DNA of 64,000 bases from an uncultured Candidatus Saccharibacteria bacterium (GCA_946530965.1 CAMNAK010000001.1:372001-436000); one strand, 5' to 3'; positions 38,626 to 50,622 are shown, counted from the first letter of the stretch. A program made the numbers and translations. Notes: generated by a model from the sequence alone, not told the origin.

Positions 38626-39654
38626 ATGGACTATGCGGAAACGATTCGCGAAGCTATCAATAACAGCCTCGCGATCATTGAACAAGAACGCGAAAAAGAG
38701 ATCATCTCACGCAGATATGGCCTAAATGGTCATAAAGAGACACTCGAACAAATCGGAGAAATGCTTACTATTACACGTGAGCGCGTTCGCCAGTTAGAGA
38801 AAGCAATTTTAATTAGACTCCGCATAGCTGCAGAGGAGAATCGTATTTCAAAATTGGCTCCAGCCGAAAAGATTATGATTCGCAATCTTACAGAAATGGG
38901 TCGAGTCGCTCGCACAAGTGAGCTTGCCAAAAAGATTCTTGGTCGTAATGCCAACGAAACCGAAAAAGCACAGTTCAACTTTATCGCAGAAATCTCTCCA
39001 TCACTTACAGTCGTTAGCGAAAACGACAAATATCACAATTCCATTGGCATCGCCGAATACGGTGACGAAAAAACTATCCGCAACAAAATAGACGAAATTA
39101 CAAACATAATTAAATCTAACAAACAGGCAATGAGCCTCGACGAGCTCGACGCCAAGCTAGATTACGAACATCCAAGCTACATCGAAGCAATCGCAAGCCT
39201 CAGCAAACAGCTATCTTCTTTGAATGGTCAGTGGGGTCTTTCCAAGTGGCCAACCGTTAACCCAAAGAATATCCGCGACAAAATCTATGTCGTTCTTGAA
39301 GAAAATAAAGAGCCAATGCACTTCTCGGCAATCGCAGAAGCCATTAGCAAATCAGATTTCCGCCGCAAGAACGTTACTGTTCAGGCAATTCACAACGAGC
39401 TAATCAAAGATCAGCGCTTCGTACTTATCGGACGCGGTATCTATGCACTAGATAGCTGGGGCTACGAAAAGGGCACAGTTTCAGACATTATTACCCGCAT
39501 TCTTAAAGAAGCCGGTAGCGAAGGTCTATCCCGCAAAGAAATCGTCAAGCAGGTCCTACGTCGCCGCAAGGTCAAAGAAACAACTGTTCTTCTAAACCTA
39601 CAGAACAAACAGCTTTACAAGCGCGTTGGTCGCGACCACTTCACAAACGTCTAA
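38626..39654 (+). CDS. Sigma-70 region 4-like and HARE-HTH regulator
   Basis: A 342-residue protein that joins an N-terminal sigma-70 region 4 helix-turn-helix (18-68, YGLNGHKETLEQIGEMLTIT, RERVRQLE) to a HARE-HTH domain (216-280, as in RNA polymerase delta and chromatin factors) plus a C-terminal winged-helix-like segment. Sigma regions 1-3 are absent, so it is not a full sigma factor. It is probably a general RNA polymerase-associated or DNA-binding regulator. Promoter TTGACA-17-TACAGT. The TraD-like gene follows with its own promoter. Confidence 0.82.
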   Translation: MDYAETIREAINNSLAIIEQEREKEIISRRYGLNGHKETLEQIGEMLTITRERVRQLEKAILIRLRIAAEENRISKLAPAEKIMIRNLTEMGRVARTSELAKKILGRNANETEKAQFNFIAEISPSLTVVSENDKYHNSIGIAEYGDEKTIRNKIDEITNIIKSNKQAMSLDELDAKLDYEHPSYIEAIASLSKQLSSLNGQWGLSKWPTVNPKNIRDKIYVVLEENKEPMHFSAIAEAISKSDFRRKNVTVQAIHNELIKDQRFVLIGRGIYALDSWGYEKGTVSDIITRILKEAGSEGLSRKEIVKQVLRRRKVKETTVLLNLQNKQLYKRVGRDHFTNV

Positions 39655-39660
39655 AACAAA

Positions 39661-39691
39661 AATATCCAGCTGGGAGGCTGGATATTTTTTA
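39661..39691 (+). terminator. Terminator of 38626-39654
   Basis: ATATCCAGC pairs with GCTGGATAT, followed by TTTTTT. Confidence 0.9.
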
Positions 39692-39707
39692 TGCTTGCAT
39701 TTTTTGA

Positions 39708-39713
39708 TATAAT
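39708..39713 (+). promoter_or_regulatory. Extended -10 of the TraD-like gene
   Basis: TGATATAAT; the TATAAT ends 6 nt before the ATG at 39720. Confidence 0.75.
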
Positions 39714-39719
39714 ATTTTC

Positions 39720-42506
39720 ATGAATAATATCTTGCACTTTCTTTTTACACCAATCGTATGGATTCCAATCGTTGTAATCCTAGTGGTGTTAACGGTGCGA
39801 AATTACCGAAAACTTAATCGCATCAAAGTCCTCAATACCGAGAGCGCACTTTTGATGCTTGAAATTCCAAAAGACAACGACAAGAACGAACTTTCCGCAG
39901 AACAGATGTTTATGTCTCTGCATGGTATTTTGCGCGACGCCGAAGAATTAAAGAACTCTGGTGGTGTTCAGGAGCATCTCTCTTTCGAAATTGCTTCTAC
40001 TGGCAATCAGATTCGTTTCTTTGTTTGGGTACCAAAAATCTACCAGTCCTTCGTCGAAGGCCAGATTTATGCCCAGTATCCAAGCGTACAAATCTATCGC
40101 ATGAAGGAAGATTACGTTGATAGACGCGAAAAATATCCCGTCACTTATACTTCCGAGATTACCCTTACAGACAACGAAGCCTTGCCAATCAAGACCTTCG
40201 ATAGCTTCGAGGTAGACCCTCTCGCTGGTATTACTGCAACTCTTGCCAAGCTTAATCCATCCGGCGGAGAAGAGATGTGGATCCAGATTTTGACCCGACC
40301 AATTGCCGATGACTGGCACAAAAAGAGCGACGAATGGATCAAGACCGTCAAGAGCGGCAAAAAGGGTGGTCTTTTTGGTTTCATCGATGCCAAATGGTTT
40401 GCCGAGTTATTTGCTGCACTCTGGAAACCACCAGAGGGCGGAGCTTCCGAAGTCAAGGTCGAGCTTAGCGAACGCGATAAAACTCGTGTCGCCAAGGCCG
40501 AAGAGAAGGGCGACAAACTTGGCTACCAGGTAAAGATCCGCCTCGCTTACGTCGGCTCTAAAGAGGTAGATGCAAAGCTAAACATGCAGGCTCTTGTTGG
40601 TACTTTTAAGCAGTACAACTCTACCGTTCTTAACGGCTTCAAGATGACCAAAGCCAGCTTCGACAAAGATGCCCTAAACGCCTACAAAGAGCGTCGTTTC
40701 GCAGATGATGGCTTCATTTTGAACGTCTCCGAGCTTGCTTCCGTTTACCACTTACCACATACAAGCGTCGAAACGCCAAATATCGTTTGGGCTTCCAGCA
40801 AGACTGCCGAACCACCAGCCAAGCTCCCACTCATGACAGGCGATCCAAATATCGACGAAAACATTTCTGCCTTTGGCTTGACAGATTTCCGCGGCATCAA
40901 GAATCAGTTCGGTATGTATCGCCGCGACCGCTCTCGCCATATCTATATCATTGGTCAGACCGGTTCTGGTAAGTCTGGTCTTTTGACTCTCTTTGGCTTG
41001 TCGGATATTTTCCATAACCAAGGTTATTGTATTATCGACCCACACGGCGACCTCGCAATGGACAACCTTCGCTTCGTGCCAGAATCTCGCATCAAAGACG
41101 TCGTCTACTTTAACCCAGCCGACACTCAATATCCTATGGCATTTAATCCGCTCGAAGTTGACGACCCAAGCCGCAAACCAAATATTTCTTCCGAAGTTAT
41201 CGGCGTATTAAAGCGTATGTTCGGCGACTCTTGGGGTCCTCGTCTTGAGCACATTCTTCGCTATACTTTGCTCGCGCTTCTCGATCGTCCAAATACAACA
41301 CTTCTAGATATTTCCCGCATGCTCACGGATACAGAATTCCGCAAAGAGACGCTTACTTATTGTAAGGACGTTACTGTTTTGCAGTTCTGGAAGAAAGAGT
41401 TCGGTTCCTGGAGCGATAAGCAGGTTACAGAATCTGTAGCACCTGTTCTTAACAAGGTCGGTGCCTTTACGGCAAACCCTATCGTTCGTAATATTATTGG
41501 TCAGCCAAAGTCTAGCTTTAATATCCGCAAGATTATGGACGAAGGCAAGATTCTTGTCGTAAACCTCTCCAAGGGTCTTATCGGCGAAGATAACGCTGGT
41601 CTCCTTGGCTCATTCCTTGTTACGAAAGTTCAGCTTGCTGCTATGTCTCGTTCGGATATCGAGAATGTCGAAGATCGCCGTCCATTCTATCTATACGTAG
41701 ATGAGTTCCAGAACTTTGCCACCGATTCTTTCTCGGTCATTCTTTCTGAGGCTCGCAAATACGGCCTAAACCTTACTGTTGCCAACCAGTATACTAGCCA
41801 GATGACCGAAAGTGTTCGCGACGCCGTCTTTGGTAACGTCGGTACAACGATTTCCTTCCGTGTTTCCGCCGACGACGCACCAGTTCTTGCCAAGCAATTC
41901 GAGCCAGTCTTTGAAGCACAAGATTTGCTCAACCTAAACAACCGCCACTTCGTCATCTCTATGATTATTAATGGCGAAAAAGTCCCTGCGTTCTCCGCAA
42001 CAACCCTAAGCATTCCAAAACCACCTCACGATATCACCCCACAAATTATTGAATACTCTCGCCAAACTTATGCACGCCCACGCGAAGAAGTCGAAAAAGA
42101 TATTTCGGCTAATATTGCTGCTGCAGATAAGTTCAAGAAAGAACTCTCTGATTCTGGCCGCGCCGCTGGTGAACGTGGCAGCCAAAATCAAGGCAACAAT
42201 TCTTCTAAGCCAGTCTTCAAGTTCCAGCCAACCCTGCAGCAAGAATTCCGCAAACAAAAGATCTCACCAAACGCCGCTCAGGGCGAAGACGAGAATGCCG
42301 GTAACGGCCTCCGCAACCTAGGTAAACTTTTTGCAGAGAAAGCCGCAACCATTAGCCCAAATATCAAAACCGAAGCACCAGAAGAACCAAAAGCAGACAC
42401 GAGCGTCTCCGACGAAGCCGCCAAGCGTCCAATTATTAGCTCTGGCAACGGCAATAAAAACAGCAGACATAACAATAACCGAAACCGCAATAAAAATCGC
42501 AAATAG
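39720..42506 (+). CDS. TraD/TraG-like (VirD4/HerA superfamily) ATPase
   Basis: A 928-residue membrane-anchored ATPase. One N-terminal helix (about 8-25) is followed by a domain of unknown role (70-390), then the motor: Walker A GQTGSGKSG (about 411-419), PHGDLAMDN, Walker B YLYVDEFQNF (about 657-666) and ANQYTSQM with an Arg finger region. The tail (780-928) is Gln/Asn/Lys-rich. Relatives are coupling proteins of type IV secretion and conjugation; in CPR genomes similar genes occur alone and may serve DNA uptake or pilus-linked transport. Leaderless start. Confidence 0.88.
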   Translation: MNNILHFLFTPIVWIPIVVILVVLTVRNYRKLNRIKVLNTESALLMLEIPKDNDKNELSAEQMFMSLHGILRDAEELKNSGGVQEHLSFEIASTGNQIRFFVWVPKIYQSFVEGQIYAQYPSVQIYRMKEDYVDRREKYPVTYTSEITLTDNEALPIKTFDSFEVDPLAGITATLAKLNPSGGEEMWIQILTRPIADDWHKKSDEWIKTVKSGKKGGLFGFIDAKWFAELFAALWKPPEGGASEVKVELSERDKTRVAKAEEKGDKLGYQVKIRLAYVGSKEVDAKLNMQALVGTFKQYNSTVLNGFKMTKASFDKDALNAYKERRFADDGFILNVSELASVYHLPHTSVETPNIVWASSKTAEPPAKLPLMTGDPNIDENISAFGLTDFRGIKNQFGMYRRDRSRHIYIIGQTGSGKSGLLTLFGLSDIFHNQGYCIIDPHGDLAMDNLRFVPESRIKDVVYFNPADTQYPMAFNPLEVDDPSRKPNISSEVIGVLKRMFGDSWGPRLEHILRYTLLALLDRPNTTLLDISRMLTDTEFRKETLTYCKDVTVLQFWKKEFGSWSDKQVTESVAPVLNKVGAFTANPIVRNIIGQPKSSFNIRKIMDEGKILVVNLSKGLIGEDNAGLLGSFLVTKVQLAAMSRSDIENVEDRRPFYLYVDEFQNFATDSFSVILSEARKYGLNLTVANQYTSQMTESVRDAVFGNVGTTISFRVSADDAPVLAKQFEPVFEAQDLLNLNNRHFVISMIINGEKVPAFSATTLSIPKPPHDITPQIIEYSRQTYARPREEVEKDISANIAAADKFKKELSDSGRAAGERGSQNQGNNSSKPVFKFQPTLQQEFRKQKISPNAAQGEDENAGNGLRNLGKLFAEKAATISPNIKTEAPEEPKADTSVSDEAAKRPIISSGNGNKNSRHNNNRNRNKNRK

Positions 42507-43826: not shown

Positions 43827-45017
43827 ATGTATGAAATACCAGCAATCGAGAAGTTTTCCGATCCCTTTGTTTTTGCACAGATTACAGATAACCCCATAGC
43901 AAAGAAAAGTGTCATATTTAGGCGTTTCCACGCTATTGTTATCTGTGATTATCTTATGCATCCCAATCGGTCAAATATCGAAAACTATTACCGCAGTATA
44001 TCCACGCTTCTGAAGCAGCCAGAGAGTACAAGGCTTGTCCTGTATCTCCCGCTCGAAGAATTACGAGACGCACCAGATTATTTTCAGGCTAGTTATATGG
44101 CCGCCTGGAGAAAATGCCTGCGATTCGAAGACGTACGCGAAAATTTCAACCTTGGTGATAGTCTCGAAATATCCGCAAGAGACGAAAATTTCCCCTACGT
44201 CACAAAAGCCGCCCACCTCATACCCTGGCTTCTGAAATACGGCTATCTTGGCGAGGCTTACGTTCTGGAGCTCCTGGAACAGGGAAGCGATTGCCTTGTT
44301 CGGAGCATCTGCGACTGCGAAAAGATGTTCTATAACATCTTTTTTCAGACTAGCCCAGAATTCCAGCTCCGCATCTCGAAGCGCGCTCGCAGTCTACCAA
44401 AGAGAGAAAGCAAACCACTCTATAATAGTCCCGAGCGACAAAGTTGGCTCAAAAAGCTCGCAGAAGAGCGGTGGGGCAAGCTCAAGCCTCGTAATATCAC
44501 TGGACCTTTCTCGAATAACTATCACGTCTGGGATACAATACCGCCAACGGGCGACAAAATTATCCTTCTTGGAGGCTCCTACCTCAAAGGATACAGCGCC
44601 ACGGTTAGCGATATCGACTCGTACGAATATGACGCAGATAAAAAGCAAATTAAAAACTATTGCGATGAGCTAAGCGACCATTTGAATATTCCTGATCAAA
44701 ATATCGCTCACATCTGTCTTAATACTGTCTGGATAAGCGAAAGAAATGATCTGAAGGAAATACAGAATGATTGCATTCGCTGCTATCTTGGGCTAAAGCC
44801 AAATTCCATCGAGCGGAGTCAGAGCCTCGAAAGATTAGAGCAAGACCTGCTCCAATATCGCCTCATACACAAGGGTATCAAGCGTATCTACGAAAATGTT
44901 TCCGAAGCTACGAAACATTTTATAGGCATCGACGGCGCTAGCGCATTTTACGACCGACGCTATCGACGAATCGCCACTCAGCTTTTCGTAAAATACGTCT
45001 TCTTGCCTCAGCTTTAA
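43827..45017 (+). CDS. Protein with nucleotidyltransferase fold, unknown role
   Basis: A 396-residue cytosolic protein. Residues 1-220 are mainly helical and not recognised. Residues about 240-340 carry the Pol-beta superfamily signature LLGGS (247-251) followed by SDIDSYEYD, where Asp262 and Asp264 fit the two metal-binding acids spaced as in GGSx(9-13)DxD. Enzymes with this fold transfer nucleotides to RNA, proteins or small molecules; antibiotic-modifying enzymes and HEPN-MNT modules are relatives. The C-terminal helical part (345-396) may be a substrate domain. Strong GGAGG site; single-gene unit. Confidence 0.75.
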   Translation: MYEIPAIEKFSDPFVFAQITDNPIAKKSVIFRRFHAIVICDYLMHPNRSNIENYYRSISTLLKQPESTRLVLYLPLEELRDAPDYFQASYMAAWRKCLRFEDVRENFNLGDSLEISARDENFPYVTKAAHLIPWLLKYGYLGEAYVLELLEQGSDCLVRSICDCEKMFYNIFFQTSPEFQLRISKRARSLPKRESKPLYNSPERQSWLKKLAEERWGKLKPRNITGPFSNNYHVWDTIPPTGDKIILLGGSYLKGYSATVSDIDSYEYDADKKQIKNYCDELSDHLNIPDQNIAHICLNTVWISERNDLKEIQNDCIRCYLGLKPNSIERSQSLERLEQDLLQYRLIHKGIKRIYENVSEATKHFIGIDGASAFYDRRYRRIATQLFVKYVFLPQL

Positions 45018-45052: not shown

Positions 45053-45094
45053 AAAAATAGGGCGCCCCAAATCGGGACGCCCATTTTTTTTATT
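45053..45094. terminator. Bidirectional terminator between 43827 gene and the four-gene operon
   Basis: AATAGGGCGCCCC pairs with GGGACGCCCATT, with a long T tract on the plus strand and TATTTTTATG on the minus strand. Confidence 0.85.
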
Positions 45095-45108: not shown

Positions 45109-46281
45109 TCAGAGAACCTCTTTGCCACCCAGACCACGAATGCCACTCGACGCATAGCCGAGCACACTCCAGTCGATAGCACGACTGAGCTGCCAGAGGG
45201 CAGTCAGATAACGAGGCTCCTCGCCAGGCGAAAGTTCGGAGAACTTTGTTGCTGCCAGCACAAAGCGCGTCAGCATCTTCTCCTGGTGTACGAAGCTCGA
45301 AGAAATGTTCAGATTCAGAGCTTTCAGCATCTGATCACGATTAGCGTAACCAGTCATTGCCGGAAGCTGCGGATTCTCGAGAGCCTTCTTGATCTCCATA
45401 GCATCATAAGCCAGAGCCGAAGCTGTTACGCTACCAATTCCGCCGAAGACGGAATTAATTGCATCATTCAGCGTTTCAGTTGCGCTCTGCACTCCAGTAA
45501 ACGGCGGCGCCTGCGGAACCATGCCCATACCGCCACCAGTCAGCAGAGAAGCCAAAGCCATCGGATTATTTGCCGAAGAACAATAAGTTTCGTTCCAAGT
45601 ATTAACTTCGTTGCTTACCGTATAGACTGCCGGCAGCAACTTGTCGTTAACCTTTTTCAGGAACTTCTTGCGCTCTGAATCGGTTACAAAACTACCATCC
45701 AGCCCTTCGATTGCAGAAAACAGGTCCGCATAAGAACGACGAGTCAGCAGCTTGCGCAGCTTGAAGAATTCAGGACCAACCGGTTCGTCGGCATTCTCTG
45801 CATAGCTTCTCATAGCCTCTTCCAGACGCTTGGGAGCATCATAGAGACCACAGCGCTCAGCATATACCGCACGAACGACTGCAATATAGCTATCCTGATT
45901 CACCTTCAGAACACCGCCAGCCTTGAGAGCCGTCAGCCAACTTTCATCACTCGGCAGTTCCGGCAGAATTGCCAGATCAGGAGCGATTACAGTCGGTGTA
46001 GCGGCAGGCGCAGACTCAGCCTTTTTGGTCTTATCTGCAACGTGAGCCAGAAGCTTTCTTGCCTGGATAGTCTTCATGCCGCAAGAAACCAAATCTTCCT
46101 CACTAACATAAGCCAGATCCTCCATGCTTTCAACGCCCTTCATAGCAAGTCCGTTAAACACGTCATTTGAGGCGCCAAAGCCTTCGAGGAAACCTCTGAG
46201 TTCGAGCTTGGCGTCATCCATTACCGGATTAGTCTCGCTCTCTTTCTTAACAGCTGCCTTTGCTTCATCGATAATTGCCAT
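45109..46281 (-). CDS. Unknown helical protein with N-terminal SAM-like domain (operon gene 4)
   Basis: A 390-residue soluble protein. Residues 28-81 look like a SAM-type or related helical interaction domain: FLEGFGASNDVFNGLAMKGV, ESMEDLAYVSEEDLVSCGM, then KTIQARKLLAHV. A Pro/Ala linker (85-105) leads to a long helical region (110-390) that I do not recognise. Its ATG overlaps the stop of the PurA-like gene (TAATG) and AGGAGG sits inside that gene, so translation is coupled. The operon context suggests an adaptor or scaffold for the VWA, PurA-like and kinase-like partners. Confidence 0.75.
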   Translation of the reverse strand: MAIIDEAKAAVKKESETNPVMDDAKLELRGFLEGFGASNDVFNGLAMKGVESMEDLAYVSEEDLVSCGMKTIQARKLLAHVADKTKKAESAPAATPTVIAPDLAILPELPSDESWLTALKAGGVLKVNQDSYIAVVRAVYAERCGLYDAPKRLEEAMRSYAENADEPVGPEFFKLRKLLTRRSYADLFSAIEGLDGSFVTDSERKKFLKKVNDKLLPAVYTVSNEVNTWNETYCSSANNPMALASLLTGGGMGMVPQAPPFTGVQSATETLNDAINSVFGGIGSVTASALAYDAMEIKKALENPQLPAMTGYANRDQMLKALNLNISSSFVHQEKMLTRFVLAATKFSELSPGEEPRYLTALWQLSRAIDWSVLGYASSGIRGLGGKEVL

Positions 46282-47639
46282 TACTTTTTCCTCCTTGGAA
46301 TATAGTATTTGTCACGCTCGCTGCTGCCGAAGCTAAGCATACAGAGCGGAACATCCAGGTAATTCGACAGTATATCCGCACACCGCAAAGCGATGGCCTT
46401 TTTACTGTCGGCGTATTCTTCATCGAAAGAATATGCATCGGTCGCAATTTCAACCCTATCGATCTTATTGAACAGATTGTAATTGCCCAAATCTTTCAAA
46501 TCCAAATACTCTTCGTCGTCAAGTTTGTAGGCTTTACAAATTGGCCAGTTTCCGTGATCCAGGACCTGGTCCATACAAGTCAACGCAATTCCGTCAAATT
46601 TTACCGGCCTCGAAACATCAAGAGCATAACGCATCAGTACCGTGTCTATATAGCCATAGCGCGACGCACCCTGCCAACGATTGTTGTCTCTAGGCAAATC
46701 GCTCATATAGTTACTATCGGCGCTAGGCATAGGCCCAGCCCCATGACGATACTCATAGGCACGATGAACGCCGATGTTTATAATCTCGCCTTCAAAGCCA
46801 GAACCACGAAACATCTCCTCTGAAAAACAGGGAAGAGTTCTCAGGGCACTAACGTGCGGCTTGAGACCATACTCAGCATCCGTCAAAACTCCGTGCGAAC
46901 GTTCAACGACAGCTATTTTGCCGCGTTTACGTTTCATCAGAGTTTCAAGCGACTCGAGACCCAGTTTCTTGCCAACCTCACGAAATTCATCGACAATCTC
47001 GTTATAGACATTACTATCATCGATTGCTCGACAAATATTCGCAAAGTGTATCTGATCATTTTCGTCTAAATCATTAATGTCTACTCTTCTTGCTACCTCA
47101 CGAGCACGCTCGCGCGCAGCATTAATCTTCTTGGGTAAATCCGCACTAAGCAAATCTCTCGCAAAAATCAAACGATTCACCGAAGCTAAGCTTTCCTGCA
47201 AGGCAGTAGCATACTCCCTATAAGCCACGCCTACTCCACTTCCAACGGTGCCACGCGGGTTTTGACCGCGTGACATCTCGTTAATCTGCGAAATATGCAT
47301 GTGATAAGGAGTACTGCAAAGACATTCCGGACTAGCCGAAATCGTCTTAAAAGCATCGTAAATACCGTAACGCCTGAGCGCTTCAGCTTCACGAAGCAGC
47401 ATCGATGGAGCAATAACCATTCGCTTAGACAGATAGGTCTGAACCGCATTAAAAGTTCCACAACCCCACTGCGAAAAGCTAAAAGTTTCACCGCAAGCAT
47501 CAATACCATGCGAGCCCTGCGCTCCGCCTTCTTTAATAACCACTGCGGGATGAAAACGAGCACAGAGCGACTGAATAACAGAGCCTTTGCCTCCATCTCC
47601 TGGTCCCAGATCGGTAACCGTATATATCTTTTCTATCAT
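46281..47639 (-). CDS. Divergent adenylosuccinate synthetase (PurA) homolog (operon gene 3)
   Basis: A 452-residue member of the PurA family, which joins aspartate to IMP using GTP. Recognisable parts: GDGGKG (14-19, with catalytic Asp), GGAQGSHG (38-45, catalytic His), GTVGSGVGVAYRE (130-142), SHGVLTDAEYG, RAYEYRHGAGPMPS, RYGYIDTVLMRY and LTCMDQVLD. The GAQG-type loop reads RSHG and the Arg-rich aspartate loop is altered, so the substrate may differ. The ATG at 47639 has AAGGAGG 5 nt upstream. Placement in a VWA/kinase-like operon and not with pur genes points to a non-housekeeping role. Confidence 0.85.
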   Translation of the reverse strand: MIEKIYTVTDLGPGDGGKGSVIQSLCARFHPAVVIKEGGAQGSHGIDACGETFSFSQWGCGTFNAVQTYLSKRMVIAPSMLLREAEALRRYGIYDAFKTISASPECLCSTPYHMHISQINEMSRGQNPRGTVGSGVGVAYREYATALQESLASVNRLIFARDLLSADLPKKINAARERAREVARRVDINDLDENDQIHFANICRAIDDSNVYNEIVDEFREVGKKLGLESLETLMKRKRGKIAVVERSHGVLTDAEYGLKPHVSALRTLPCFSEEMFRGSGFEGEIINIGVHRAYEYRHGAGPMPSADSNYMSDLPRDNNRWQGASRYGYIDTVLMRYALDVSRPVKFDGIALTCMDQVLDHGNWPICKAYKLDDEEYLDLKDLGNYNLFNKIDRVEIATDAYSFDEEYADSKKAIALRCADILSNYLDVPLCMLSFGSSERDKYYIPRRKK

Positions 47640-47649
47640 CGAGACCTCC

Positions 47650-48747
47650 TTAGAGCCATGCCGAGCTTTCACTCTTAGGCTCTACGCCAGCGTCATCCTC
47701 ACGCTTAATAGCGGGAACAAGATCCGTCTTGTTTTCAAAGATATCTCCAGCCTTAGGAATGTAAACCTTATTCTGCTGCTCAAGCTCACGCTGAGCACCA
47801 AAGGGAAGAGCAAGCAGTGCATGGATAGCGTGTTCAATGTCGAACGACGGCACCCCTTTACTCTCCAGGTATTTCTCTACCTCTTCGGGCTCAAGAATAC
47901 CTTCGGTTATGCCAATGATTGCCGATTCAAACTCCGGCAGGTAATCTGTCGAGAGCAGAGGAATAATTCTACCCTCGAAATAACGCTGGTAGAACTTCTC
48001 TGCATCAATAGACAAGACAAAAGCATGTTTGTTCTTCTTTAAATCCTCTATCGTTTCCCTCAAATCGGGGCGACACAGCGGATTAAAGTCATAGCCGTTA
48101 TCCTTCAGGGCTTCCCAAACTTTCTCGCCAAAGATTCTCTCCAGAATATCCTTCGAAAGGTTACCATGCATCGGAGCATCAGTACACAAGAAGTAATAAC
48201 CCTTGAGTCCAATCTTATTCGTATAGGCCGAGGTAAGATAAGCCGAGGCAAACATCGAATACTGCGGATCCTCAGGCGTGTCTCCACCATTACGTTCAGG
48301 ATTCATCTCAGAGAGATAGCCAACAATCTTGTCAGCCTCCATCTCGAACTGAGGGCGATTCAGTACGAATTTATCACATACATCACCAAAGAATCCCAAA
48401 GCCAGCTGAGGATCATATCCTGGCAGCATGGCAGAGCAAAGCTCATAGGTCCTGGGTAACGCAGACATTGCACTGTCAACATTGTCCCCCATTGATCCAG
48501 TAGAATCTACCGAGGTTTCAATATCCATCGGGCAGCCAACAGTTACTTCCCACTTGCCGTCTTCGGTCGGATCGAGGCGCAGCATCGAACGACGCAACGT
48601 ATCAACCGACGGATCTACGGATGGCGGAAGCTTTCCAGTTTCTCTTACGTGCTGCTCTCCCTTACGGGTAACACCTTTGTCAGAGGTAACCCCTCTCGAC
48701 TTACGAGATGTTTCATACGCAGCCTTGGAAAATACCAATCTTCCCAC
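47650..48747 (-). CDS. Von Willebrand factor A domain protein (operon gene 2)
   Basis: A 365-residue soluble protein with a VWA domain at about 70-280. The metal-binding MIDAS site is intact: DSTGS (81-85, DxTxS), then the T/D of GGDTPED (about 143-149) and CTDAPMHG. This VWA type resembles those of kinase-linked and stress-linked VWA proteins. A basic N-terminus and an acidic C-terminal tail flank it. It begins with GTG, with AAAGGA about 12 nt upstream; the stop lies 10 nt before the PurA-like start. No signal peptide. Confidence 0.85.
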   Translation of the reverse strand: MGRLVFSKAAYETSRKSRGVTSDKGVTRKGEQHVRETGKLPPSVDPSVDTLRRSMLRLDPTEDGKWEVTVGCPMDIETSVDSTGSMGDNVDSAMSALPRTYELCSAMLPGYDPQLALGFFGDVCDKFVLNRPQFEMEADKIVGYLSEMNPERNGGDTPEDPQYSMFASAYLTSAYTNKIGLKGYYFLCTDAPMHGNLSKDILERIFGEKVWEALKDNGYDFNPLCRPDLRETIEDLKKNKHAFVLSIDAEKFYQRYFEGRIIPLLSTDYLPEFESAIIGITEGILEPEEVEKYLESKGVPSFDIEHAIHALLALPFGAQRELEQQNKVYIPKAGDIFENKTDLVPAIKREDDAGVEPKSESSAWL

Positions 48748-48766
48748 TTAACATCACTATCCTTTC

Positions 48767-49615
48767 TTAAACAAAGTTGTCGACGTTTTTCCAAACGCCG
48801 CCTTTATTGAAGGTGAACGGATGATATCCTTTCCCCCACAAAGCATCAAGAAACTCATAGTAGGCCACGTGAGCTTCCAGACCATTGTTAAAATAGCCCG
48901 TAAACCGCTTCAGCCAACTCATGAATTCGTCTTCGCCCTCAGTATCATTCTTCTCAACCCAAGAAAGAGTCGCATCAAACATACGGTCAATATTGAGTTT
49001 AGAGATCAAATCACAGTGCGAATAGGAACGGTCGCCGCCATGCAGGAGTTCATCAAACCAGCCTACATATACAACGCGGTGCTGTTTCGGCGCAATCAGA
49101 ACCATGTCAGGGTTAAAATCCAAGCTACGACAGTTTTCACTCTCGTCAAGGAAGGCCTGGAGCTTCAAGAAGCGCCCTAGCACCCATGCGACACTTTTTG
49201 CATCAACTTTCATGCCATTCTTCAGTTTCAAAAACGGAACAAACTTGTCCCACGAAGCATCCAAAACCGAAAAAGTATTTATACGTCTATTGTCTGTAGC
49301 GTCACAAGAAAAACTTTGTTCGCAAACAGGGAAGAGCCAGTCGTAGTGAATCTTGCGACCGTCATCACCCTGCTTCGAAATACGCTCCTGTTCGAGATTC
49401 TGAGACAATTCGCTCAGCTCGTCCAAAAGCTTCTTTTCGGCATACATGATGCCATTCTGGGCCTTGCTTTTCACGATTCGGCAAAGCAATGCATCGGCAG
49501 AGTTTTCACCTCTTCCAAGATACAGCTTATAGTTATCTGTTTCTGCCAGTAAATCTCTCGGCGAGATACAGATACCTTCGTTGCCATTTGGATCATTAAT
49601 GACCAAATAAATCAT
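48767..49615 (-). CDS. Protein-kinase-like protein, probably degenerate (operon gene 1)
   Basis: A 282-residue soluble protein with weak protein-kinase-like features: glycine-rich LGRGENS (33-39), a Lys in CRIVKS (Lys49), a helix Glu in AEKKLL (Glu60), and DFNPDMVLI (166-174), which resembles the HxDxxxxN catalytic loop with Met in place of the metal-binding Asn. No DFG is seen. It may be a pseudokinase or another ATP-binding protein. The start is uncertain: ATG 49615 touches the AAGGAG site, and a TTG at 49606 would have better spacing. First gene of the operon; promoter at 49668-49696. Confidence 0.6.
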   Translation of the reverse strand: MIYLVINDPNGNEGICISPRDLLAETDNYKLYLGRGENSADALLCRIVKSKAQNGIMYAEKKLLDELSELSQNLEQERISKQGDDGRKIHYDWLFPVCEQSFSCDATDNRRINTFSVLDASWDKFVPFLKLKNGMKVDAKSVAWVLGRFLKLQAFLDESENCRSLDFNPDMVLIAPKQHRVVYVGWFDELLHGGDRSYSHCDLISKLNIDRMFDATLSWVEKNDTEGEDEFMSWLKRFTGYFNNGLEAHVAYYEFLDALWGKGYHPFTFNKGGVWKNVDNFV

Positions 49616-49667
49616 CTCCTTTTCAAAATACAAAAAACGAGACTAAGCTCGCCTTTATGAGTCATAT

Positions 49668-49696
49668 CATAAACTAATTTACAGAGAAGGGCAAGG
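49668..49696 (-). promoter_or_regulatory. Promoter of the four-gene operon
   Basis: TTGCCC (49691-49696), 17 nt, TATGAT (49668-49673) on the minus strand; a CGAG/CTCG hairpin followed by TTTTTT lies in the leader and might attenuate. Confidence 0.55.
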
Positions 49697-50587
49697 ATAA
49701 GCGCTAAATGCTAAGCACTTGCACTCACCTTGATAGACCGAACATGAACCGAACAGAGAAGTGGTACTTCCCCGATCCTAATCTGTTTTTATATACCCCC
49801 TACCCCTGTTATTTTGATATTTTACCCCTGTTCTACCTCTGTTACGACCCCCTGTAAGCATCAGAATAGCTCCAGAAGCGCAAATCCTTCAAAGCCACAG
49901 AATCGCGTGTGTGACACGATAATTAGCATAAGTAGTATAAATACTCGAAACAAAATAGAAAATCGCACACACACGAAAATAGGGCGGAAATACAGACAAA
50001 TACCAGCCAGGGTCCAAAAAGCTGGTTGAAATAGACGCATGGACAATCGTCTTTTGTCTATATTTTTAATGTCGCACAATGTATATTTTACGACATAGGG
50101 CTATTATACATCTCGACGTATAAGCAATCGTCTATGTCGGAAGAATATATCTGTTAAATGGACTACATATATACATATACTCACCCGTCTACATCTATAA
50201 ATATATAAACGTACGTCTAATCATCAATAATATACCTATGCTGATCCTAATGAGCCGCAATATCACCTTAGAAGCAGTCGAAAACAGCTACCCCTATCGC
50301 AAAAAGCGCTGGGGGAAGTCCTAAAACTTGACTTTTGTTTCGCCAAAATACGCACGCCACCCCTGTAAAATCACATATTATGACATAATGTAAACCCTAC
50401 AACACACTCAATTTCCGTGAAATTTGCCCATTTTTGGCCATTTTTCAATTTTTCACGCCCCTCTACCCGACCCCTTGTCCGAGACGATTTTTACCTATTT
50501 TGCACCACACCCACCGCAAACCTTCCCTAAAAGCGTACGGAATCGTCTCAAAACGAACCGAACAAAAACCGAACACGAGAGTAGTAA
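49697..50587. other. Gene-free region of about 0.9 kb
   Basis: No convincing open frame is seen on either strand. The region holds a dif-like palindrome (50069-50096), several CGTCTA/TAGACG hexamers between 50030 and 50220, a CCAGC/GCTGG stem (50005-50025) and two similar motifs at its ends (49737-49771 and 50557-50602). I found no DnaA-box cluster, tRNA or CRISPR. Confidence 0.6.
50069..50096. other. dif-like 28-bp palindrome (tentative)
   Basis: ATGTCG and CGACAT end a 28-bp site whose centre AATGTATATT matches the centre of the E. coli dif site. The outer arms agree only partly with XerC/XerD arm consensus. Confidence 0.25.
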
Positions 50588-50611
50588 AAGAAGTGGTCTT
50601 CCAACCACTCC
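50588..50611 (-). terminator. Terminator of the FtsQ-like gene
   Basis: AGTGGT and ACCACT pair, followed by TCTTTT on the minus strand. Confidence 0.7.
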
Positions 50612-50622
50612 TTAAACACTGC

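Follow-up and report, generated by a model that had tools for sequence, protein, structure and literature searches.

A set of five adjacent genes, coding for a kinase-like protein (KIN), a VWA protein, a PurA-like protein, a helical protein with a possible SAM domain (the SAM protein) and a nucleotidyltransferase (NTase), is found in a 64,000-nucleotide stretch of DNA from an uncultured Candidatus Saccharibacteria bacterium (GCA_946530965.1, CAMNAK010000001.1:372001-436000), the whole of which is referred to here as the window. Four of the genes lie on the minus strand with gaps of 19, 10 and −1 nucleotides between KIN, VWA, PurA-like and SAM genes, as an earlier reading made from the sequence alone (the sequence-only reading) had correctly described, and the fifth, which that reading missed, converges on them from the plus strand. 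The features of the locus are the following:

48767-49633, minus strand: KIN, first gene of the operon, with a TTG start; the real start is perhaps a few codons downstream
47650-48747, minus strand: VWA protein, with the metal ion-dependent adhesion site (MIDAS) residues D81-x-T83-x-S85-M and D190
46281-47639, minus strand: PurA-like ligase, assigned from PF00709, a residue table and a tree
45109-46281, minus strand: SAM protein, with an N-terminal SAM/HhH-like domain (borderline) and an all-helical C-terminal part
43827-45017, plus strand: NTase, with N-terminal helical repeats and a C-terminal pol-beta-type nucleotidyltransferase, convergent with the operon
45060-45082, minus strand: intrinsic terminator in the intergenic region where the SAM and NTase genes converge (10-pair stem, 8 G-C, T tail)
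49666-49694, minus strand: possible operon promoter, TTGCCC-17-TATGAT, weak (9 of 12 consensus positions)

The terminator 3' of the SAM gene is convincing. The single promoter that had been proposed together with it is a weak call, since the region holds 17 comparable sites where 8.3 are expected.

Recurrence and mobility of the five-gene cassette

Loci of the cassette were found through the VWA protein, with one genome scanned per species, and they number 49, 47 in genomes and two on viral contigs. The exact order, with four genes in one direction and the NTase gene opposed (KIN+ VWA+ PURA+ SAM+ NTASE-), is present in 37 of the 49, and the remaining loci are mostly cut by contig ends or hold an additional gene copy. 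A homolog of the window's fifth gene adjoins the block, convergently, in nearly all of them. The unit proposed by the sequence-only reading is conserved, but four genes are not its full extent, and the possibility raised there, that these genes are never neighbours elsewhere, is contradicted by the loci. The recurrence in Patescibacteria genomes, which the same reading had suggested looking for, was found: all loci with a named host group belong to Patescibacteria, with Saccharibacteria predominating and further hosts among Paceibacterota, Wildermuthbacteria, Sungiibacteriota, Daviesbacteria and Falkowbacteria. Within the phylum, the cassette is rare and patchy; VWA relatives are present in a further 13 genomes of the same genus and in 0 of 24 genomes from other families in an initial sample, and the VWA profile matches 8 of 380 genomes in a phylum-wide sample.

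When near-identical copies are excluded, the identity to the window proteins is 23-36% for KIN, 36-54% for VWA and 36-46% for PurA, and as it is so low across loci, the linkage of the genes must be old. The ratio of nonsynonymous to synonymous substitution rates (dN/dS) is about 0.1 in all five genes, which indicates purifying selection. The four-gene block is not a product of chance, because dozens of genomes have it, with proteins of low identity, and it is under this selection. The existence of a five-gene system is well supported, whereas its chemistry and role are what we infer from its parts.

The proteins flanking the cassette (n = 229) fall into 177 clusters; the flanks are mostly unrelated and the insertion sites vary, so the cassette is mobile. 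An empty site is found in the genome G014, where homologs of the window's flanking genes lie about 1 kb apart with no part of the cassette detected between them, and the cassette of G014 itself is diverged and located on a different contig. In the comparison of the window with G011, the synonymous divergence (dS) is 0.13-0.21 for the four operon genes and 2.3 for the NTase gene, which was thus exchanged on its own. Among the five proteins, conservation is also lowest for the NTase (mean column identity 26%, length from about 380 to 640 residues). Exchange of a single component would be typical of output or specificity parts. One cassette contains a tandem second NTase copy (L061:4312-6989), and an extra KIN gene lies a few kb from another (L037:14836-15234).

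Upstream of the operon, no conserved gene is found over about 1 kb of the window (49634-50622); this interval includes a 30-nucleotide direct repeat (49737-49766 and 50557-50586, 77%), and an Rfam search of this 1-kb gap matched no family. A few genes to the left of the cassette (38626-42506), a protein with sigma-70 region 4 and HARE-HTH is encoded, followed by a VirD4/TraG-like coupling ATPase.

The PurA-like protein and its partners

The PurA-like protein of the window scores 127.7 bits against PF00709 and misses the NCBIfam purA equivalogs (88.6 bits against a cut-off of 395.6 for TIGR00184 and 102 against 402 for NF002223); its best match in PHROGs is phrog_1211, which carries a PurZ-type family name. 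In an alignment numbered by E. coli PurA, with a tree set of 16 cassette members and 14 housekeeping proteins, it shares with the E. coli enzyme the fold, the equivalents of the phosphotransfer residues D13, K16 and H41, which are present in the window protein and in all 16 cassette members, and that of the guanine-site residue D333, kept in the cassette members. The differences are found in the aspartate loop, where T301 is Q, R303 is a gap and R305 is V, I or S in 16/16 cassette members, whereas R303 and R305 are retained in 14/14 housekeeping proteins. R143, at the IMP phosphate, is lost, and K331 is W or C. In cassette, phage and plasmid members N38 is Q (with one phage exception) and V273 is H, while the changes E14G, G40S, T42G, Q224H, L228T and T239S mark the cassette. 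The divergent PurA with altered substrate loops that had been read from the window is thus confirmed. According to the alignment, the residues kept are those that phosphorylate the purine 6-oxo group, and the aspartate-binding ones are lost.

A maximum-likelihood tree, obtained in a quick search with SH-aLRT support only, places cassette, phage and plasmid PurA opposite housekeeping PurA and PurZ (support of the split, 100). As judged by its sequence, the PurA-like protein is a member of a subfamily separate from both housekeeping PurA and PurZ. Solitary PurA-like genes adjoining an ABC-F ATPase gene were seen in three genomes of the same genus (L082:7775-9220, minus strand; L083:7564-9039, plus strand; L086:1-753, plus strand); they branch within the cassette PurA clade, and in the two full-length copies the Asp and Lys of the P-loop are replaced by S or V, so they would be an apparently non-catalytic descendant.

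The sequence-only reading had itself allowed that the protein might simply be the only housekeeping PurA of its genome. It is the sole PF00709 protein of that genome, which is 99.4% complete, yet no match to PurB (TIGR00928) was found there, while 14/14 control genomes matched, and the aspartate-binding residues are gone. Of 45 genomes of the same genus, 19 have PF00709 and 2 have PurB, with none having both; the two PurB genes are G003:C4:16448-17785 and G017:C15:9907-11040, in genomes without a PurA-family protein. Because PurB is missing and the two families never co-occur, the PurA-like protein does not function as part of the usual route from IMP to AMP.

KIN matched no Pfam family, and its profile aligns with the kinase of Bixzunavirus phages, which itself exceeds the Pfam Pkinase cut-off (hhalign 98.8%, E 5.6e-17). 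The HxD Asp, the catalytic-loop Asn and the DFG Asp are not conserved across 36 KIN homologs; divergent members alone retain the N-[VI]-L-[IV] motif and the metal (DFG) Asp, and the window protein has an Asp, in F-N-P-D-M-V-L, at the position where they have N-V-L-I. As the catalytic Asp is absent and the Asn is lost in the window group, the kinase-like protein described earlier as lacking the metal Asn is indeed degenerate, and is better named a pseudokinase. In the VWA protein, the intact MIDAS that had been noticed is invariant in 39 homologs (D81, T83 and S85 of D-x-T-x-S, and the distal D190). No Pfam VWA domain was matched and the Thr of GGDTPED varies, so the assignment relies on the motif and on a match to the phage VWA profile (hhalign 92.7%, E 4e-7).

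The SAM protein has a SAM_TNK match just under the threshold (24.6 bits against a cut-off of 25, E 2.7e-5), and the SAM domain assignment, which comes from this match, is therefore borderline. Its model is all-helical, as anticipated (mean pLDDT, the predicted local distance difference test, 79; pTM, the predicted template modelling score, 0.65), and a fold search against the Protein Data Bank (PDB) gave no match at E <= 0.001, leaving the C-terminal part without a recognised fold. The NTase motif GGSxLKGYxxxxSDxDxY is nearly invariant, no third acidic residue was identified, and Pfam Polbeta is over its cut-off in the NTase homolog L060 (28.9 against 26.9). The NTase model is of good quality (pLDDT 89.6, pTM 0.91), and in its Foldseek and VIA results, helical-repeat proteins that match the N-terminal part take up the lists. 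This part resembles HEAT/ARM-type repeats at no more than middling Z values (best 6.4, one among many repeat proteins), which is not taken here to assign a family. Sequence searches of the PDB that started from the profiles of NTase, KIN, VWA and SAM proteins yielded no useful match. Of the profile and structure comparisons that had been proposed for these proteins, those by hhalign matched KIN, VWA and the PurA-like protein to phage homologs, and the one of the SAM model was without result.

Relatives in phages and plasmids and comparison with described systems

Among phages, Bixzunavirus mycobacteriophages hold the best matches of the PurA-like protein (hhalign 100%, E 4e-48), and upstream of their PurA-like gene lie genes for a kinase, for a VWA protein and for a protein of 90 residues. 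By profile comparison, the Bixzunavirus kinase, VWA protein and PurA are homologs of those of the cassette, and these three genes are called the core here. VWA-PurA pairs occur in Vibrio phages, Rhizobium phages and one gut phage as well. The viral core loci analysed here are the best 80 of 237 IMG/VR contigs with a core VWA, not a random sample; among these 80, the PurA-like gene is present in 76, often following a J-domain pseudokinase gene; a protein of about 340 residues with a J-domain-like region and a pseudokinase is encoded in 33, and the profile of the window KIN is matched by its family (98.8%, E 9e-17). Four plasmids that were examined, of Acetobacter, Allorhizobium, Tsukamurella and Rhodococcus, also carry the core, and there the genes are annotated as hypothetical, hypothetical and adenylosuccinate synthetase, with a NUDIX gene nearby on the last three. 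The VWA protein P0002 had no match among PLSDB plasmids.

Bixzunavirus and plasmid genes resemble the cassette in having three homologous genes in the same order and the xQGxxRxGxLD loop, their annotations being kinase or hypothetical, hypothetical and "PurA-like adenylosuccinate synthetase". They differ in that the kinase has a J-like domain and the Bixzunavirus VWA can contain an intein; no cassette-type SAM protein or NTase was found beside the phage core copies. The intein of the phage VWA gene (L088:4945-6726) is present in some C1 phages and seemingly absent from others, and the VWA protein bearing it is matched over at least 80% of its length in one place by 60 of 229 matching phage records. 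Another observation concerns a Patescibacteria genome with a core-type VWA-PurA pair (L207, G168:C3:22249-25033), in which PurA lies outside the cassette clade, suggesting that the phylum acquired the core on a separate occasion. Neighbours of the phage VWA-PurA pairs (L095-L174, n = 80) include NMNAT/NUDIX (11), NAMPT-like (10), NADAR (4), TROVE (4) and a Met/Gly-rich protein (15); they hint at a link with NAD reconstitution.

PurZ, the 2-aminoadenylosuccinate synthetase of Z-genome phages, is likewise a divergent, phage-borne relative of PurA. In PurZ, Asp13 is replaced by Ser (PMC12884076; see also PMC8342488), which was confirmed for phiVC8 and SH-Ab 15497, whereas all cassette members keep the Asp, and the cassette enzyme travels with a VWA protein. 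Identity with PurZ is ruled out by Asp13 and by the tree, where PurZ groups with housekeeping PurA on the opposite side. TerY triads and MoxR/VWA ternary systems also join a VWA protein to a kinase-like partner, and ternary conflict systems include kinases with disrupted catalytic residues (PMC7159879). The cassette has a PurA-like enzyme and an NTase instead of PP2C and the MoxR ATPase, and neither a PP2C phosphatase nor a MoxR AAA ATPase is among its five genes, so that it is neither a TerY triad nor a MoxR-VWA system. The TerY triads named as relatives by the sequence-only reading are comparable in pairing a VWA with a kinase-like protein, but the nearest relatives are the J-pseudokinase/VWA/PurA cores of large phages and plasmids. 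With CBASS and other NTase-centred defence, the common point is a pol-beta-type NTase partner gene; the cassette NTase is fused to helical repeats and has no PADLOC match, and the PurA-like enzyme is without counterpart there. In open-licence papers, no description of the five-gene cassette or of the three-gene core as a unit was found. Each part comes from a known superfamily, and the combination and the PurA branch match no described system testable here, in agreement with the earlier statement that none is known with this set.

Possible functions of the cassette

Our preferred reading, which we put forward tentatively and at somewhat less than an even chance, is that of a mobile, nucleotide-centred conflict or stress cassette in which the VWA protein and the pseudokinase control a modified-purine ligase with an exchangeable NTase as output. 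The VWA/pseudokinase pair would sense a signal through the MIDAS metal and ligand binding, and would assemble or gate the PurA-like ligase. With a nucleoside triphosphate (NTP), the ligase may activate a purine nucleotide at O6 and then attach some amine different from aspartate; the resulting modified nucleotide would not be handed to PurB. The SAM protein could act as a scaffold, and the NTase, as the exchangeable output arm, would use the modified nucleotide or be turned on by it. Resistance to phages or other genetic parasites, or a stress response, would be a likely purpose. That the system makes or uses a modified nucleotide, as the sequence-only reading had supposed, is still something we infer. 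A bolder version, possible but held with more reserve, is that the PurA family has a third functional branch, distinct from PurA and PurZ alike, which makes a new modified purine nucleotide under VWA/pseudokinase control. This branch would be common to large phages, plasmids and Patescibacteria, and in the last it would be coupled to an exchangeable NTase within a nucleotide-based conflict system not described before.

Several points weigh against the cassette being such a conflict or stress system. Ten cassette proteins, from two genomes, were compared with the PADLOC 2.0.0 models and none matched, and a known defence system is excluded on this null. Some flanking proteins do match PADLOC defence models, such as AbiEi, AriA and mad3, but they were counted without a control set, many flanking genes are housekeeping genes, and the support for a defence role is weak. 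Phages often carry the core; for them a role in defence is less evident, and its neighbours there suggest NAD or nucleotide metabolism. The NTase, moreover, may be an effector, a target selector or unrelated to the product of the ligase.

The PurA fold could instead be an NTP-driven switch, or a subunit modifying a macromolecule (a protein, or a purine in RNA or DNA), within a chaperone-like assembly with the VWA, J-domain/pseudokinase, SAM and helical-repeat partners, serving repair or quality control without a diffusible nucleotide. The J-like domain of the phage and plasmid kinase partner fits this idea, as do the VWA, SAM and helical-repeat regions, which are assembly domains, and the TROVE and ligase-like genes found in the vicinity of certain phage copies; the invariant D13, K16 and H41, however, argue for a retained purine-nucleotide chemistry, and no J-domain is seen in the cassette KIN. 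The idea is an unlikely though serious candidate. Rather unlikely, too, is an auxiliary role in nucleotide or NAD metabolism, with the core as a transferable set of metabolic genes for the synthesis or salvage of an intermediate among the purine or pyridine nucleotides. This would account for the NMNAT/NUDIX and NAMPT-like genes in 11 and 10 of the 80 phage loci, for the NUDIX genes near three plasmid operons, and for NUDIX being the commonest Pfam family in the cassette flanks, together with NadA and NAD_synthase. NAD-related genes in the bacterial flanks are few (NUDIX 4/112, the others singletons), though, VWA, pseudokinase, SAM and NTase would be atypical metabolic parts, and the distribution is patchy, with swapping. 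The hints from flanks and neighbours toward NAD or nucleotide metabolism and toward defence are uncontrolled and favour no rival decisively.

Saccharibacteria live on host bacteria, and the cassette might be an offensive or host-interaction device of such an epibiont, to which the divergent and exchanged NTase would be suited; as family scans of the cassette proteins matched no secretion or toxin-delivery family and the core is common to phages and plasmids of free-living bacteria, this is quite improbable. Least credible, and hardly tenable, is an ordinary adenylosuccinate synthetase in a chance operon. Being the only PF00709 protein of the genome speaks for it, but PurB is missing, the aspartate-binding and IMP-phosphate residues are lost, fewer than half of the genomes in the genus have the protein, and its scores are far below the purA equivalog cut-offs.

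For the VWA/pseudokinase-linked PurA subfamily of phages, plasmids and Patescibacteria, the label "adenylosuccinate synthetase" is probably a mis-annotation. Repurposing of the purine ligase is known once before, in PurZ, where it serves a new DNA base. If the reading of the cassette as a modified-purine system is true, it would represent a second such repurposing, placed inside a mobile module with a nucleotidyltransferase, and would point to new nucleotide chemistry.

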